This document shows, one piece after another, positions 169 through 6,155 of a stretch of DNA of 11,103 nucleotides; the first letter of the stretch is position 1; every line of letters starts with the position of its first letter. The notes under the pieces were generated by a model. It made no database searches and was not told the origin of the DNA. It saw only the letters and a list, made by a program, of their open reading frames with translations. Both the position numbers and the translations under genes were made by a program. Source of the stretch: Anaerolineae bacterium (GTDB lineage: Bacteria; Chloroflexota; Anaerolineae; Anaerolineales; UBA11858); contig RFKO01000226.1 of assembly GCA_003694235.1 (NCBI GenBank), positions 1-11,103 on the forward strand. Reading direction: 5' to 3'.

Positions 169-1821
169 ATGAACCGCAAGACCCTGTTGATTTTGCTTGC
201 CCTGTTTGTCGTGGCCAGCCTGGCCTTTGCGGCCTGCAAGCCGCAACCGGCTGAAGAGGCCGCTCCTGCTGAGGAAGCCGCTCCTGCTGAGGAAGCCGCC
301 CCTGCTGAGGAGGCCGCTCCTGCTGAAGAGGCCGCGCCGGCAGAGGAGGCCGCTCCCCTGGTAATTGGCACAACGGATAGCTGGTCCAGTTTTGAAGCGG
401 CCTGGGTTTACAGTTTCCACGATTGGGAATTGTTCCACCAATGTGCGGATGGCCTGTTGAACAATAAACCTGGTACGGCTGGTGAGGTGGTGCCGGCTCT
501 GGCTGAATCCTATGATGTCAGTGAGGATGGCAAGACCTACACATTCCACCTGCGCCCCGGCGTGGTATTTCCCAACGGGGATCCGCTGACAGCGGATGCA
601 GTGGTATGGTCCCTGCAGCGCGTTTACACTATTCAGGATATTGAAGGTGATAACGCCAACTTCTTGCTGACGGCATATGTGGAAAGCAAGGACGCCATCA
701 AGAAAATTGATGACATGACTGTTGAGGTCACGTTTGCCGAGCCCTATGCCTTCGCTCCCCAGCTTGTGGCGACCAACCCGTGGAAGATTCTCAACCCCAA
801 TCAGTGGACGGATACCGAGGCCAACACCACCAATACAGCCTGCGGTATCGGCCCGTACGTGTTGGAGTCTTTCACCGAGGGAGAGGAGGCCGTCTTTGTA
901 GCCAATGATACTTACTACGGCGAACCACCTAAGACGAAGAAAGTGATCGTTCGTTACTTCGCCGATTCGCCCACCATGTCCCTGGCTTTGCAGAACGGCG
1001 AGATCGACGTTGCCTGGAAGCAACTCGCGCCTGCCGATCTGGAAGCCTTGCGCAGCGCTGACGGCATCGTGGTAGAGCAATCTGGTGGTACTGAGATTCG
1101 CTACATTGTCTGGAACACCAAGATTCAGCCCTTCGATGATGCCCGCGTACGCAAAGCGCTTTCGATGATGCTCGATCGCCAGGAACTGACTGACCTCGGA
1201 TGGCAGGGGATCAAGGTCCCGCTGTATTCCATGGTACCGCCTGGATTCCTCGGGCATAAGCCCACTTTCGAGGGCACAGAGGACATGGAAGCGGGCAAGG
1301 CGTTGCTGGCCGAAGTAGGATATGACGAGAACAATCCGCTCGAACTCGACCTGTGGTACAGCCCGACACACTATGGCGACACCGAGGCGGATGTAGCCGC
1401 GGTGATCAAGCAGCAATGGGAGTCCAGCGGCGTGGTCAAGGTCAACCTCAACTTCGCAGAGTGGGCTGCTTACCGCGATGCCGGCCGCAATGGCGAACTG
1501 CCGGTCTCGCTGCTGGGATGGTACCCGGACTATCTCGACCCGGATAACTACACCAATGTCTTCGCCCACAGCCCTGCCGCCTGGTCTGGCTCCTTCTACA
1601 GCAATCCCGAAATGGATGCGCTGCTGGATGCTCAGGCAGCGGAGCGTGACGAAGCCAAGCGCGTGCAATTGCTTGAGCAGATTCAGGACCTGTGGGTGGA
1701 TGAAGTGCCCTTTACACCGCTGGCACAGGGCTCGCTTTATGTTGCCTACCGCGATAACGTTTCCAACGTTGTCCTGGACCCGCTGGGGCTGTTCCACTAC
1801 TTCTTGATTGAGAAGAAGTAG
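169..1821 (+). CDS. Peptide/nickel-type ABC importer substrate-binding lipoprotein (SBP_bac_5 family)
   Basis: This is the extracytoplasmic receptor of a Dpp/Opp-type ABC importer; it captures substrate and delivers it to the permeases encoded downstream. The 550-residue product starts with a typical lipoprotein signal: basic MNRK, a hydrophobic stretch at about residues 5-21, and a lipobox-like FAAC with the lipidated cysteine at 23. Phe at the -3 position is less usual than Leu. Residues 28-63 form a flexible linker of six identical AEEAAP units, followed by the mature family-5 domain from about 64 to the C-terminus. Family hallmarks include the SYDVSEDGKTYTFHLRPGV region, the FPNGDPLTADAVVWSL region and a VRKALSMMLDR motif near residue 327. 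Length is normal for the family. The start is set by a strong RBS. The substrate cannot be told from sequence: oligopeptides, dipeptides, nickel chelates and sugars are all carried by this family. Confidence 0.93.
   Translation: MNRKTLLILLALFVVASLAFAACKPQPAEEAAPAEEAAPAEEAAPAEEAAPAEEAAPAEEAAPLVIGTTDSWSSFEAAWVYSFHDWELFHQCADGLLNNKPGTAGEVVPALAESYDVSEDGKTYTFHLRPGVVFPNGDPLTADAVVWSLQRVYTIQDIEGDNANFLLTAYVESKDAIKKIDDMTVEVTFAEPYAFAPQLVATNPWKILNPNQWTDTEANTTNTACGIGPYVLESFTEGEEAVFVANDTYYGEPPKTKKVIVRYFADSPTMSLALQNGEIDVAWKQLAPADLEALRSADGIVVEQSGGTEIRYIVWNTKIQPFDDARVRKALSMMLDRQELTDLGWQGIKVPLYSMVPPGFLGHKPTFEGTEDMEAGKALLAEVGYDENNPLELDLWYSPTHYGDTEADVAAVIKQQWESSGVVKVNLNFAEWAAYRDAGRNGELPVSLLGWYPDYLDPDNYTNVFAHSPAAWSGSFYSNPEMDALLDAQAAERDEAKRVQLLEQIQDLWVDEVPFTPLAQGSLYVAYRDNVSNVVLDPLGLFHYFLIEKK
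250..357 (+). repeat. Six tandem 18-bp units encoding (AEEAAP)6 linker
   Basis: Six head-to-tail 18-base units each encode Ala-Glu-Glu-Ala-Ala-Pro, just after the lipidated cysteine of the binding protein. The units differ only at third codon positions (GAA/GAG, GCT/GCC/GCG/GCA, CCT/CCG/CCC), and all six give the same peptide. Units 2 and 3 differ by a single base, which suggests a recent duplication. The acidic linker probably tethers the binding domain away from the membrane. Copy number may vary between strains. Confidence 0.95.
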
Positions 1822-1857
1822 GGCAGAGGGATACGTTATCGTGTTTGTGTGAATTGC

Positions 1858-1895
1858 AAAGGGGCTTGAACGCGAGTTAGCGTCCGAGCCCCTTT
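1858..1895 (+). terminator. Intra-operon stem-loop between binding protein and permeases (partial terminator or mRNA stabiliser)
   Basis: The left arm 1858-1873 starts AAAGGGGCT and the right arm 1880-1895 ends AGCCCCTTT, with a 6-base loop GAGTTA. The 16-bp stem has one G-T wobble and one A-C mismatch. The stem ends in only three T before ACACATCG, so read-through is likely. No convincing promoter is visible between it and the next gene. Such a hairpin after the binding-protein gene is a common way to keep that transcript more abundant than the permease and ATPase part. Confidence 0.75.
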
Positions 1896-1926
1896 ACACA
1901 TCGTTGCACATTTCATCGAGGTGCAT

Positions 1927-2943
1927 ATGTCTCCAGCCTTGAGGCGGTACATCCTGGTACGCGTGTTGCTCACCATTCCGATGGTGTTGATTCTCGTTTC
2001 TCTTGTGTTCCTCGTTTTACGGGTTTTACCCGGCGATCCGGCGCTGGCCATATTAAGGGAGGGAGCTTCCGAAGAGCAGTTAGCCTCCTTTCGGGCGGCT
2101 CTTGGATTAGATAAGCCGCTTCACGTCCAGTATGTTGAATTCATTAAGGGCGTGTTGCGCTTCGACTTTGGATCTTCCATGACGCGTAAAATCCCGGTTA
2201 CGCAAGAGATCAAAACGTTTTTCCCGGCAACTGTTGAGCTTGCACTGGCCAGCATGTTTGTAACCGGCGTAGTGGGGGTGTTTTCTGGCGCGTTTGCCGC
2301 CCAGCATCGAAAATCCGCTGCTGATTACACCATCCGCATCCTCAGTATTCTCCTATACTCTCTGCCTATATTCTGGTTAGGGTTGATGTTGCAGATGACC
2401 CTGGGGAAAGGGGCAGGATGGTTCCCTGTGTCTAATCGTTTAAGCCCCGGCATGACGCCTGACAAGATCATCACCGGCATGTACACGGTTGACGCCCTGC
2501 TTACCGGCAACTGGCCTTTATTCAAGGACGCTGCCTGGCATCTAATCCTGCCGTCCATCACGCTGGGGCTGGTTTTGGCCGGGATCTTTACTCGCCTGAC
2601 ACGGGCTAACATGCTGGATATCCTGGAGCAGGATTTCATTACCGCGGGGCGGGCTCGCGGCCTGCGTGAACGGACGCTGGTTTACAGACACGGTTTGCGT
2701 AATGCTTTCATCCCTATTGTTACGCTACTGGGACTGCAATTCGCTTTGCTTCTCGCAGGCGCTATACTCACAGAGACCACATTTTCGTGGCCTGGTATGG
2801 GACGGCTGGTAGTGGATCGGATCTATGACCGCGATTTCACCACCGTGCAAGGTGCGATCCTCTTCTTTGCCCTGCTTGTGGCGGGCATCAGTTTATTTGT
2901 AGATATTCTCTACGGATTTCTGGACCCTCGAATAAGATACTGA
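1927..2943 (+). CDS. ABC importer inner-membrane permease, DppB/OppB type
   Basis: This is the first of two transmembrane subunits forming the translocation pore of the importer. The product is 338 residues from the ATG at 1927. It has an N-terminal membrane segment (about 8-28), then the conserved ...RVLPGDPA motif, a long extracytoplasmic loop to about residue 90, and a BPD_transp_1 domain with several membrane segments. The cytoplasmic EAA loop that docks onto the ATPases is visible at about residues 240-262 (AGRARGLRER followed by HGLRNAFIPIV). The C-terminus ends in YGFLDPRIRY, typical of DppB. A GTG at 1921 in the same frame could add two residues, but it lies inside the GAGGTG Shine-Dalgarno sequence (1918-1923) serving the ATG at 1927, so the ATG is preferred. 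The next gene begins one base after this stop codon. Confidence 0.93.
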   Translation: MSPALRRYILVRVLLTIPMVLILVSLVFLVLRVLPGDPALAILREGASEEQLASFRAALGLDKPLHVQYVEFIKGVLRFDFGSSMTRKIPVTQEIKTFFPATVELALASMFVTGVVGVFSGAFAAQHRKSAADYTIRILSILLYSLPIFWLGLMLQMTLGKGAGWFPVSNRLSPGMTPDKIITGMYTVDALLTGNWPLFKDAAWHLILPSITLGLVLAGIFTRLTRANMLDILEQDFITAGRARGLRERTLVYRHGLRNAFIPIVTLLGLQFALLLAGAILTETTFSWPGMGRLVVDRIYDRDFTTVQGAILFFALLVAGISLFVDILYGFLDPRIRY

Positions 2944-2944
2944 C

Positions 2945-4117
2945 ATGGCAGAGATACAAACACCCTCATCTACTGTTGAAGCCGAAAAGATCGGCCTTTT
3001 GGGGCGTTTCTGGCGCGGGCGCATCTGGTACGGAACGGAGTGGTATATCACCACGTTGGGCGGGTTGATTCTCATTGCCATGATATTGATGACCATCTTC
3101 GCTCCCTGGCTGGCGCCTTTTGATCCCAACGCCTTCATTGGTGCTCAGTTCACGCCGCCGGGATGGGGGAAACAGACCTTGCTGGCACGCTCCGGGGAGG
3201 CTCCCGACATCTCACTGGACAACCTCGCTGGTGTAATGATCGGTGTGCAGCGTAACCGCAATGGGGCAAATCTGGCAAAAGAGCTGCACGCCCAGGGCAA
3301 ACGCTACCAGACGCAGGAAGATTTACTGGCGGCCCTGCTCGACGGGGAGGTAGACCTGATCTTTGTAGACCAAAAACTGACAGAGGAGATCCTTGCACAC
3401 TACGAGGGTCTGGAGATTGTGGCCGAAGGGCTGGGGCGCAATTATCCATTAGGAACCGATAATCTGGGGCGGGATATTGTCAGTCGCCTGATTTGGGGAG
3501 CGCGTACCGTGCTCGGTGTAGCGTTGACCTCGGCGCTTTTCTCCTCGGTGATCGGCATTACGCTAGGTTTGATCTCCGGTTTTGTCAGCGGCGTCCTGGA
3601 TCGGGTGCTTTCCCTGGTGATGGACAGCATTTATTCTTTCCCCGGCCTGTTACTGGCGATTGCTATGGTGGTCATGTTGGGGCCGGGATTGATCAATGTG
3701 GCGATTGCCGTCTCGGTGATTTATGTGCCTACTTTCTTTCGGGTAGTGCGCGGCCAAGTGTTCTCCATCAAGGAAGAACTATACGTCGAAGCCGCGCGCA
3801 GCCTGGGCGCCAAGCCGTTGACCATTCTGACGCGTTATATCTTTCCTAATGTGATCCCCTCGGTGGTTGTAGTCTTCTCCCTGAACGTGGCAGATGCGAT
3901 TCTGACGGAGGCCGGACTTTCGTTCGTGGGCCTGGGGCTACCGCCAGATGTCCCCGATTGGGGATACGATCTCAGCAAAGGGCAGTCATTCCTGGTGGCG
4001 GGGCAATGGTGGCCAATCACCTTCCCCGGCATTATGATTACGCTGGTTGCAGCAGGTTTTAGTCTGCTGGGAGAAGGGCTGAGTGAAATTCTCAACCCTC
4101 GTCTGGTAAAGGGATAG
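2945..4117 (+). CDS. ABC importer permease, DppC/OppC type, with an extracytoplasmic SBP-like insert
   Basis: This is the second transmembrane subunit, pairing with the DppB-like protein. The 390 residues comprise a cytoplasmic N-terminus (1-33), TM1 (about 34-58), the FAPWLAPFDPNAF motif of the OppC N-terminal domain, a non-canonical insert (about 76-165), the hallmark YPLGTDNLGRD (167-177), and a BPD_transp_1 domain with about five membrane segments. The EAA loop is at about 279-302 (YVEAARSLGAKPLTIL then RYIFPNV). The C-terminal LNPRLVKG is typical of DppC. Usual family members run about 280-310 residues; the excess is largely the insert. The gene starts one base after the dppB-like stop with no good Shine-Dalgarno sequence, so translation is probably coupled. 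Family identity is secure. The insert's origin is inferred. Confidence 0.92.
   Translation: MAEIQTPSSTVEAEKIGLLGRFWRGRIWYGTEWYITTLGGLILIAMILMTIFAPWLAPFDPNAFIGAQFTPPGWGKQTLLARSGEAPDISLDNLAGVMIGVQRNRNGANLAKELHAQGKRYQTQEDLLAALLDGEVDLIFVDQKLTEEILAHYEGLEIVAEGLGRNYPLGTDNLGRDIVSRLIWGARTVLGVALTSALFSSVIGITLGLISGFVSGVLDRVLSLVMDSIYSFPGLLLAIAMVVMLGPGLINVAIAVSVIYVPTFFRVVRGQVFSIKEELYVEAARSLGAKPLTILTRYIFPNVIPSVVVVFSLNVADAILTEAGLSFVGLGLPPDVPDWGYDLSKGQSFLVAGQWWPITFPGIMITLVAAGFSLLGEGLSEILNPRLVKG
3170..3439 (+). other. Domain insert in the DppC-like permease resembling one lobe of an SBP_bac_3 receptor
   Basis: Residues about 76-165 of the permease replace the short link that normally joins the PPxW segment after TM1 to the YPLGTDxLGRD motif. 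Within it, the order DISLDNLAGVMIGVQ, then YQTQEDLLAALLDGEVDLIFVD, resembles the second lobe of family-3 solute-binding proteins. There a L-x-G-x-x-I/V-G-V-Q strand is followed by a T/S-x-E-E-A-L-x-A-L-x-x-G-x-V-D-A-x-x-x-D segment. With the N-terminus in the cytoplasm, the insert should lie outside the membrane, where the substrate-binding protein docks. The similarity is judged by eye. Only half of a Venus-flytrap fold would be present. Confidence 0.6.
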
Positions 4118-4125
4118 GTGTGAAG

Positions 4126-5130
4126 ATGACAACCACAGATATCCTGTATCAAATTCGCGATCTGGTGGTGGAATACAACACACGCGCTGGCGTACTGACG
4201 GCGGTAGATCATGTCTCCTTTGATATCCACCGCGGTGAGGTGCTTGGATTGGTGGGAGAGTCTGGATGTGGGAAGTCCACCCTGGGCAAAGCCTTGATGC
4301 GCATGATCCAGGAACCGGGACGCATCACCGGGGGAGAACTCTGGTTCGATGGGGTTGACTTGATGCAACTATCGCCAGGCGAAATGCGCAAGCTGCGCGG
4401 TAGCCGCATCAGTATGATTTTCCAGGATCCGATGACCTCTCTCAATCCCGTGCAGCGCGTAGTGGAGCATATCACGGAGACCATTCGTGTACATGAACCA
4501 CACGTCAGCATAAAAGCAGCCCGTGCCCGGGCAGCAGAACTGGTGGACCGGCTGGGGATCAATCGCAACCGTCTGGACGATTATCCTCACCAGCTCTCCG
4601 GTGGGATGCGCCAGCGCGTTATGATTTCTCTGGCGCTGGCTTTGCGCGCCGATCTGGTGATCGCCGATGAGGCAACCACGTCACTGGATGTGATCGTTGA
4701 GGCCCAATTCCTCGACTTGTTGAAGGAGTTGCGCGAGGAATTCAATCTTACGATTCTGTTGATTACCCACAGTATCGGGCTGGTAGCCGAACTGGCCGAC
4801 CGGGTGGCCGTGATGTACGCCGGGCGCATGGCCGAACTGGCCGACATCCACGAGTTGTTTGAGCAACCCCAGCACCCCTACACTCGCGGATTGTTACGGG
4901 CCGTGCCCAATATTCGGCTGGAAGATGATGAATTATATAAAATGCCCGGCTCGCCCCCTGACCTGGTTTCCCCACCCTCGGGATGCCGGTTTCATCCACG
5001 CTGCCCGGAAGCAAGCGAAATCTGTTCCCGCCAGGCGCCCACGTTCCATGAGCATCGTCCAGGCCATTTCATCAATTGCTGGCTGTACCAGGAACAAGAA
5101 GAATCGGTTTCTTTGGAGGCGTCTTCATGA
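4126..5130 (+). CDS. ABC importer ATPase, DppD/OppD type
   Basis: This is one of two cytoplasmic ATPases powering the importer. From the ATG at 4126 it is 334 residues; a GTG at 4120 would add two. The ATG is favoured because AGGTG (4116-4120) serves as its Shine-Dalgarno sequence. Numbered from the GTG: Walker [10 protein letters not shown] (46-54), Q-loop [10 protein letters not shown] (101-110), signature LSGGMRQ (159-165), Walker B VIADEA (180-185) and H-loop ITHS with His217. The catalytic Glu is present. The following Pro of DEP is Ala, and the residue after the H-loop His is Ser rather than the usual Asp. The C-terminal OligoHPY region (QHPYTRGLL, then GCRFHPRCP) has four cysteines at 289, 295, 302 and 320. 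In some OppD/DppD proteins these hold a [4Fe-4S] cluster. The stop overlaps the next start as ATGA. Confidence 0.93.
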
Positions 5131-6155
5131 ACTCATCACCCTCTTCCCTGCCCGCAGTAGATTCTCCTCTGGTGCAGGTCATGGATCTGCAAAAGTGGTT
5201 TCCTGTGCAACAAGGGTTTTTGGAGCAACTGTTTGCCGGGCACAAAGACTATGTGCGCGCTGTGGATGGTGTTTCATTCACCATACAGCGCGGCGAGGTG
5301 TTGGGGTTGGCCGGAGAAAGTGGAAGTGGAAAAACCACGATCGGTCGTCTGGTGCTACGTTTGCTAGAACCCACCGACGGTCAAATTTTATTCGATGGAC
5401 AGGATATCACCCATCTGGAGGGCGAGGCGCTACGTCGCCTGCGGAGCCGCATGCAGGTTGTTTTTCAGGACCCCTTCGCCTCCATGAACCCACGCATGCG
5501 CGTGGGAGAGCAAATCGGGCATCCGCATCAGATCCATATCCCTGCCACGCCGGAAGAACGGCGAGCAGTCGTGGAAGAGATTATGGAGCATGTTGGCCTG
5601 ACCCCCGCCAGGCAGATTTATGACAAATATCCGCATCAACTGTCCGGCGGCATGCGACAGCGAGCTGTGCTGGCCCGCGCTTTGGTCACACACCCTGACC
5701 TTGTGGTAGCGGATGAACCGATTGCTATGGCGGATGTCAGTGTGCGGGCATTGCTTCTGGACCTGATGAAGCGCCTGAAAGATGAATTCAATCTCACCTA
5801 TCTTTTCATCACCCATGATTTGGCTACCGCCAAATATATCTGCGACCGCATCGGTATTTTATATCTGGGACGCATGGTGGAGATTGGCCCTCTGAAAGAA
5901 GTATATGGAATGCCTCTCCATCCCTACACCCAGGCGTTATTGGAAGCAGTACCTGTGCCAGACCCTCGCCATCGGCGCACCCTCGCTATGCCGAAAGGGG
6001 AGATTCCCAATCCTATCAACCCGCCCACCGGCTGCCGCTTCCATCCGCGTTGCCCCGTGGCGCGGGATCACTGCGCTCAGGAAGAACCCGAACTGCGCGA
6101 ACTGCGCCCGGATCACCTGGTGGCCTGCCACTACGCCGAGGACTATCTGACCTGA
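5127..6155 (+). CDS. ABC importer ATPase, DppF/OppF type
   Basis: This is the second ATPase of the importer and should form a heterodimer with the DppD-like subunit. The start at 5127 is chosen over an upstream in-frame ATG (5076) because GGAGG (5115-5119) sits 7 bases before it and ATGA overlaps the previous stop, giving 342 residues. It shows Walker [10 protein letters not shown] (63-71), Q-loop [10 protein letters not shown] (113-122), signature LSGGMRQ (172-178), Walker B VVADEP (193-198) and H-loop ITHD (His230). It ends in an OligoHPY tail ([18 protein letters not shown]) with four cysteines (303, 309, 316, 334). The extension before Walker A ([22 protein letters not shown]) is usual for OppF. 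The D-loop reads AMAD instead of the common SALD. It is the last gene of the operon, followed by a strong hairpin. Confidence 0.93.

Follow-up and report, generated by a model that had tools for sequence, protein, structure and literature searches.

The analyzed window (the whole stretch of 11,103 nucleotides, contig RFKO01000226.1) belongs to the draft genome of an Anaerolineae bacterium (344 contigs, 81% complete) and carries on its forward strand a five-gene Dpp-type importer in the order family-5 receptor, DppB, DppC, DppD and DppF. The product of the receptor gene (169..1821) matched PF00496 in Pfam (E 6.6e-91) and contains a FAAC motif, which we take to be a lipobox, followed by an (AEEAAP)n linker; no SBP_bac_3 domain was found in this protein by Pfam. 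Downstream lie a dppB-like permease gene (1921..2943; Pfam PF00528 at E 4.2e-42 and PF19300 at E 3.7e-12), a dppC-like permease gene coding for 390 aa with an embedded half binding protein (2945..4117; the embedded part is hereafter called the insert), and two ATPase genes whose best NCBIfam models, both under their cut-offs, were PRK09473 (OppD) for the dppD-like gene (4120..5130, E 1.1e-98) and PRK11308 for the dppF-like gene (5127..6155, E 1.2e-107). The in-frame ATG at 5127 was chosen as the start of the latter (the list of open reading frames has a TTG at 5076). The DppB and the receptor of the window are both plain. In DppB, 64 residues separate PGDP from FPATxEL, and the TM1–TM2 loop holds no added domain. 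In this loop, the region matching the E. coli scoop motif was placed by eye at 2029..2130 (+ strand), according to the accessible part of PMC12136057. An Rfam search of the whole window gave no match. The genes located 3' of the importer presumably code for CoaE, DisA, YbbR, and Der. In a genome of the same genus (G670), an insert-free Dpp operon (L115:1029-7122) that is 26–51% identical to positions 169–6155 of the window occupies the same site before these four genes, which suggests that operons were exchanged or that one of two was lost.

The insert-bearing permease has a predicted DppC fold and passes the Pfam cut-offs of both BPD_transp_1 (97.5 bits, cut-off 26.4) and OppC_N (27.9 bits, cut-off 23.9). 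No substrate-specific NCBIfam equivalog (dipeptide, nickel, oligopeptide, etc.) scored over its cut-off (the best, Opp2C, reached 220.7 bits vs. 300). After TM1 (residues 31–51, helix by DSSP of the predicted model, 3035..3097), the insert is flanked by PPG (residues 71–73) and LGTDNLGRD (residues 169–177, 3449..3475), where the ordinary permease core begins and where G170, T171, and D177 were invariant in 48 rows. The compared stretch measures 105 residues in the window and 101–128 in 41 insert-bearing rows vs. 14 in seven relatives without the insert, namely four Spirochaetes, one Actinomycetes, one Chloroflexi, and one archaeal MAG. The window permease has thus gained about 91 residues net, in agreement with the roughly 90 extra residues that the earlier note placed between the PPGWG segment and YPLGTDNLGRD. 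The insert is located exactly at the point where the seven relatives have their 14 residues, and both its edges continue directly into permease sequence. It also contains the two motifs that had been quoted from it (L-x-G-x-x-I-G-V-Q and E-D-L-L-A-A-L-L-D-G-E-V-D-L-I-F-V-D), and the originally proposed boundaries (3170–3439, residues 76–165) fall within the embedded lobe, which extends slightly further on both sides, over approximately residues 74–169 (3164..3451, + strand).

Three types of insert were distinguished: type A (the window's, approximately 95 residues), type B (approximately 95), and type C (approximately 120). In Pfam, PF00497 (SBP_bac_3) was absent at E up to 10 for both the window permease and the insert alone, and the other weak matches of the insert, DUF7432 (E 0.0056) and 2-Hacid_dh (E 0.031), scored below their own cut-offs; with Pfam as the sole search, the domain would have gone unnoticed. 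In NCBIfam, TIGR01096 (an SBP_bac_3-type receptor family) matched the insert alone with an E-value of 6.3e-5 (22.6 bits, curated cut-off 256), and the sequence search against the PDB returned BvgS at the top (E 0.0078) and ArtJ next (E 0.01). An SBP_bac_3 HMM based on 30 proteins from the same phylum as the window matched the window insert at model positions 177–257 (E 1.4e-6) and type A and B relatives down to E 8.2e-20; no type C permease was matched by it at E 1e-3. When a profile of 24 inserts was compared by hhalign with the 30 SBP_bac_3 proteins, a probability of 97.1 was obtained (E 6.7e-11, score 67.3), the controls scoring 22.3 (best of 100 column shuffles) and 13.7 (reversed SBP alignment). 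The corresponding values were 99.1 for type B (nine rows, E 5.2e-19, score 117.5; maximum of 60 shuffles 19.2) and 92.3 for type C (11 rows, E 5.4e-7, score 48.7; maximum of 60 shuffles 18.9), and two single type C sequences reached probabilities of only 80 and 55, which makes type C, as judged from the profiles, the weakest case for homology with SBP_bac_3. Searching 301 genomes of the phylum with the insert profile gave 76 matches, and the 30 loci that were read comprised 27 with an SBP_bac_3 protein (127–335 bits) and three with a permease motif (L051, which is the window, L073, and L075); thus, the insert profile alone leads to SBP_bac_3 proteins. Sequence homology with lobe 2 of SBP_bac_3 proteins was therefore found, at scores below the curated Pfam cut-off.

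The fold of the insert, read from a predicted model of the whole permease chain (pLDDT 86–94 for the insert blocks), is that of lobe 2 of SBP_bac_3. It runs from a first hinge strand (residues 77–82, 3173..3190), which aligns to QIIVVRS in an SBP_bac_3 protein, to a second one (residues 156–163, 3410..3433), and its QRNRNG loop (residues 102–107, 3248..3265) takes the place of the SBP_bac_3 Q-x-G-T-T. Lobe 2 alone is present, and the two-lobed hinge-and-cleft architecture of SBP_bac_3 was not found in the window permease. We are nearly certain that the insert represents lobe 2 of an SBP_bac_3 protein in full and, as the profile comparisons and the predicted model show, it was captured hinge to hinge into the extracytoplasmic TM1–TM2 loop of DppC. 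The earlier note had read the sequence as half of such a protein (lobe 2, with its segments in the right order, in the loop after TM1), and this reading is borne out by the profile match (NCBIfam, hhalign, and our own HMM, though not Pfam) as well as by the structure prediction, which returned a periplasmic-binding-protein lobe of the SBP_bac_3 type.

The spread of the insert, whose mapping had been proposed in the same note, was assessed with a profile of the insert plus flank (E 1e-12) in 396 genomes of the class, 43 of which matched. At least 20 of them, the window's included, hold the insert, a number that is a lower bound because 10 candidates were scored per genome; in the family, it was found in one of 21 genomes. 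The insert-bearing loci of the class are L081–L099 and L101 (L097 is cut by the contig end), the matches at L100 and L102–L110 lack the insert, and in 13 more the match fell on the profile's flank end. In one insert-bearing permease from a MAG (L006:7839-9152), an in-frame stop right before the GTD motif points to a broken gene or a sequence error. In the lobe tree, 28 inserts were split from 36 SBP_bac_3 lobes by one branch (support 92/90, just short of the tool's star), a topology that favours a single capture; an earlier lobe tree, whose test did not reject one clade (p-AU 0.356), was set aside because several type A rows were misaligned. For the permease trees, 36 of the 120 listed homolog proteins were combined with the loci, without L005, L006, L012, L020, L082 (= L007), L097 (contig end), and L103–L110 (eight ordinary permeases); L102 was kept in the first tree and left out of the second together with L018 and L019 (long branches). 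The distribution of the insert requires four or more changes on the first tree and three or more on the second, well-supported branches force two of these changes, and the insert rows formed a single clade in 0 of 200 bootstrap trees (one-clade test p-AU 0.061, second permease tree). As insert-bearing permeases are not grouped in the tree, a single capture would imply losses or transfer; these trees do not decide between one gain and several, and several captures are possible. A type C insert also occurs in a MAG named as Actinobacteria (L014:814-2067) that the trees group with L101, a genome of the window's order, a placement explained by either transfer or misbinning.

Additional extracytoplasmic parts were found in related operons. 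Between two fixed motifs, the TM1–TM2 loop of DppB measures 469 residues in L118 and 461 in L119 vs. 64–66 in plain permeases, which corresponds to about 400 extra residues (genes L118:5704-8064 and L119:6098-8524). Pfam identified Reg_prop (two-component regulator propeller) in the DppB of L118 and no propeller in that of L119; among the 120 relatives listed for the L118 segment, 62 also have PF00528, one of them being the same protein, so permeases of this kind are numerous. Enlarged DppB loops are likewise present in L116:8810-10561 (203 residues), L120:13-1512 (188), and L016:6389-7966 (187), with SH3 matches in Pfam for L116 and L120; the loop ends of L016 resemble those of L120, and its DppC is insert-free. 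The receptor gene is in view in 17 insert-bearing operons (it is out of view in L005, L014, L120, and L121), and three of these, L116, L118, and L119, have fused receptors of 809–840 residues containing both SBP_bac_3 and SBP_bac_5 (Pfam), encoded upstream of the insert-bearing DppC (L116:10354-12780 and 13133-15652, L118:3238-5685, L119:8548-10974). In the other 14, including the window's, no SBP_bac_3 receptor domain was found (the L007 gene is cut by the contig end); weak SBP_bac_3 matches in several receptors (model positions approximately 15–103) lie at the N-terminal end, with its signal and linker, and were not accepted as domains. An origin of the insert as a copy taken from the fused receptors is unsupported, as the lobe tree does not group the two. 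Two separate SBP_bac_3 genes adjoin a type C operon (L123:2359-4418). Taken with the fused receptors, the SH3 and propeller matches in DppB indicate that the complex gained extracytoplasmic parts more than once. The insert-free relatives L009, L011, and L016 have the same five-gene make-up.

Conservation was calculated on the best 120 of 5572 homologs, window included, all of which keep the insert. In these rows, variability is far higher in the insert (mean entropy 1.84 bits, 50% average identity to the window) than in the permease core (0.47 bits and 85%), and a few polar residues stand out: R103 (120/120), N104 (117/120), N106 (111/120), and G107 (114/120), together with R120 (111/120, 3302..3304), R82 (106/120), and D142 (100/120, 3368..3370). 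Residues 102–107 lie at what we take to be the ligand-loop positions of SBPs, where the window's type has N-x-N instead of G-T-T, and Asp142 is located in the place of an SBP_bac_3 Asp (present in 25 of 30 SBP_bac_3 rows) that is presumably ligand-binding. In type A, the two lowest entropies among the 90 six-residue segments of the insert belong to those that start at residues 99 and 102. Only in this type does conservation peak at the former ligand loop, which ranks 20th of 90 segments in type B and 16th of 111 in type C; the peaks of types B and C are at the second hinge (VGxPFG) and at RYETLE, respectively. Of 11 pairs, eight gave computable dN/dS ratios for the insert (0.02–0.38) and ten for the permease core (0.014–0.105); these values are rough since synonymous sites are near saturation.

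By analogy with the E. coli importer, we tentatively propose as the most likely role, at somewhat less than an even chance, that the lobe is a folded module on which the anchored family-5 receptor docks and which seals the cavity. In E. coli, a scoop in the DppB TM1–TM2 loop sits in the cleft of DppA and was proposed to seal the cavity, with DppA capping both permeases (accessible part of PMC12136057). The lobe occupies the DppC loop that corresponds to this DppB loop and would be the DppC-side counterpart of the scoop, placed on the permease mouth beside the docking site of the receptor, where it would hold the receptor and form a wall of the cavity for the substrate. In type A, the main contact would be made by the former ligand face, with either the receptor or the permease mouth as partner. 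Its retention in many relatives makes a role in the cooperation of the importer with its own binding protein probable, and with lobe 1 missing, the lobe alone should not capture ligand. Many type II binding proteins concentrate almost all of their binding residues in a single lobe, for the most part the discontinuous lobe (PMC10601554, accessible part); the lobe captured in the window DppC is not the discontinuous one, which is lobe 1. The fold and homology of the insert, its persistence in all of the best 120 of 5572 rows, the low (if rough) dN/dS values, the polar loop R103-N104-x-N106-G107 with R120 and D142 standing out in the otherwise fast-evolving type A domain, the location of the lobe in the DppC loop equivalent to the scoop-bearing loop of DppB, the DppB loop domains and fused receptors added in related operons, and the precedent of the MalF P2 region, which touches its receptor (PMC3150292, accessible part), all argue for docking and sealing. 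Against it stand the variability of the insert relative to the permease core and the moderate conservation of the former ligand loop in types B and C, and a ligand could equally be served by Asp142 and the polar loop. Moreover, insert-free relatives share the five-gene make-up and insert-bearing ones are a minority, so the insert is not required by such importers as a rule.

The same polar residues may instead belong to a hinged lid or sensor, in which the permease replaces lobe 1 and the lobe shuts over released substrate or a small ligand, thereby gating transport. Since the hinge strands lead to TM1 and TM2 and not to lobe 1, the former cleft face may be turned toward the mouth of the permease; both the hinge-to-hinge boundaries and the conserved type A residues at former ligand positions, the SBP Asp included, would fit such a role; the fast evolution of the domain, the replacement of G-T-T by N-x-N in the window's type, and a loop without special conservation in types B and C make it unlikely in our view. 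A more specific version, which we regard as speculative and rather improbable, is a hybrid Venus flytrap with the permease as lobe 1 and the hinged lobe 2 closing over the channel mouth, whose conserved QRNxNG/Arg120/Asp142 face would handle the substrate between its release by the family-5 receptor and its entry. If true, this flytrap would join a lineage of peptide importers that keeps adding extracytoplasmic domains, such as the DppC lobe, the SH3 or propeller domains of DppB, and the fused receptors.

The lobe could also be a structural spacer or stabilizer, a compact domain that the loop tolerates and that aids the folding or stability of the permease with no specific partner. Its faster evolution compared with the permease and the relatives that manage without it are consistent with such a role, as is the stability of the isolated domain 2 of T. 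maritima ArgBP, which denatures only at 102.6 °C (accessible part of PMC11328109); we nevertheless consider a spacer doubtful, as the invariant polar-loop residues (R103 in all of the best 120 of 5572 rows) exceed what it needs and the lobe was kept across three diverged types. Pairing of the lobe with an SBP_bac_3 protein or domain, such as those in the fused receptors, so that a second receptor class feeds the importer, appears distinctly improbable: the receptors of L116, L118, and L119 and the two genes beside the L123 operon would provide partners, but most operons in view (14 of 17) yielded no SBP_bac_3 receptor domain, and inserts and fused receptors are not grouped in the lobe tree. 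The earlier note had also considered a relic of domain capture, and the patchy spread in class and family would suit a functionless, decaying one. This is the least likely reading and a very remote one, given an insert present in all of the best 120 of 5572 rows, with invariant residues, computable dN/dS below 0.4 (rough values), and a confidently predicted fold. The two other roles suggested in the earlier note, a docking surface for the lipoprotein and a substrate sensor or gate, are both more probable than this relic.

Permeases with whole binding-protein domains attached are already known, and no description of a permease with exactly one hinge-cut lobe in its receptor-side loop was found in an open-licence full-text library. 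Such a permease is a natural experiment on the role of a single lobe beside a translocator and on how importers acquire gates and docking surfaces, and the relatives with SH3 or propeller domains in DppB and with fused receptors make the question testable comparatively. The DppC of E. coli DppBCDF (8z1w_B) and the DppC/OppC of M. tuberculosis have about 280 residues in all vs. 390 in the window and, to our knowledge and as their chain lengths imply, no such folded domain in the TM1–TM2 loop. The insert resembles lobe 2 of SBP_bac_3 proteins, of T. maritima ArgBP (domain 2, 6gpm), and of the GluR0 ligand core (1ii5), and differs from SBP_bac_3 proteins in lacking lobe 1, in being embedded in a membrane protein, and, in type A, in the change from G-T-T to N-x-N. 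The substrate-binding domains of GlnPQ and OpuA are whole and two-lobed. As far as the accessible descriptions go, they are linked to the transmembrane domain and form, as here, a covalent part of the translocator, whereas the window DppC carries half a domain inside a loop and no complete two-lobed one. MalF P2 of the maltose transporter is located in another loop, has another fold, and is not known to derive from a binding protein. It is likewise a large extracytoplasmic permease region that contacts the receptor (accessible part of PMC3150292). The DppB scoop likewise lies in the TM1–TM2 loop, that of the paired permease, and docks on the receptor (accessible part of PMC12136057), but it consists of two short helices and a loop, while the insert of the window is a full alpha/beta lobe in DppC.
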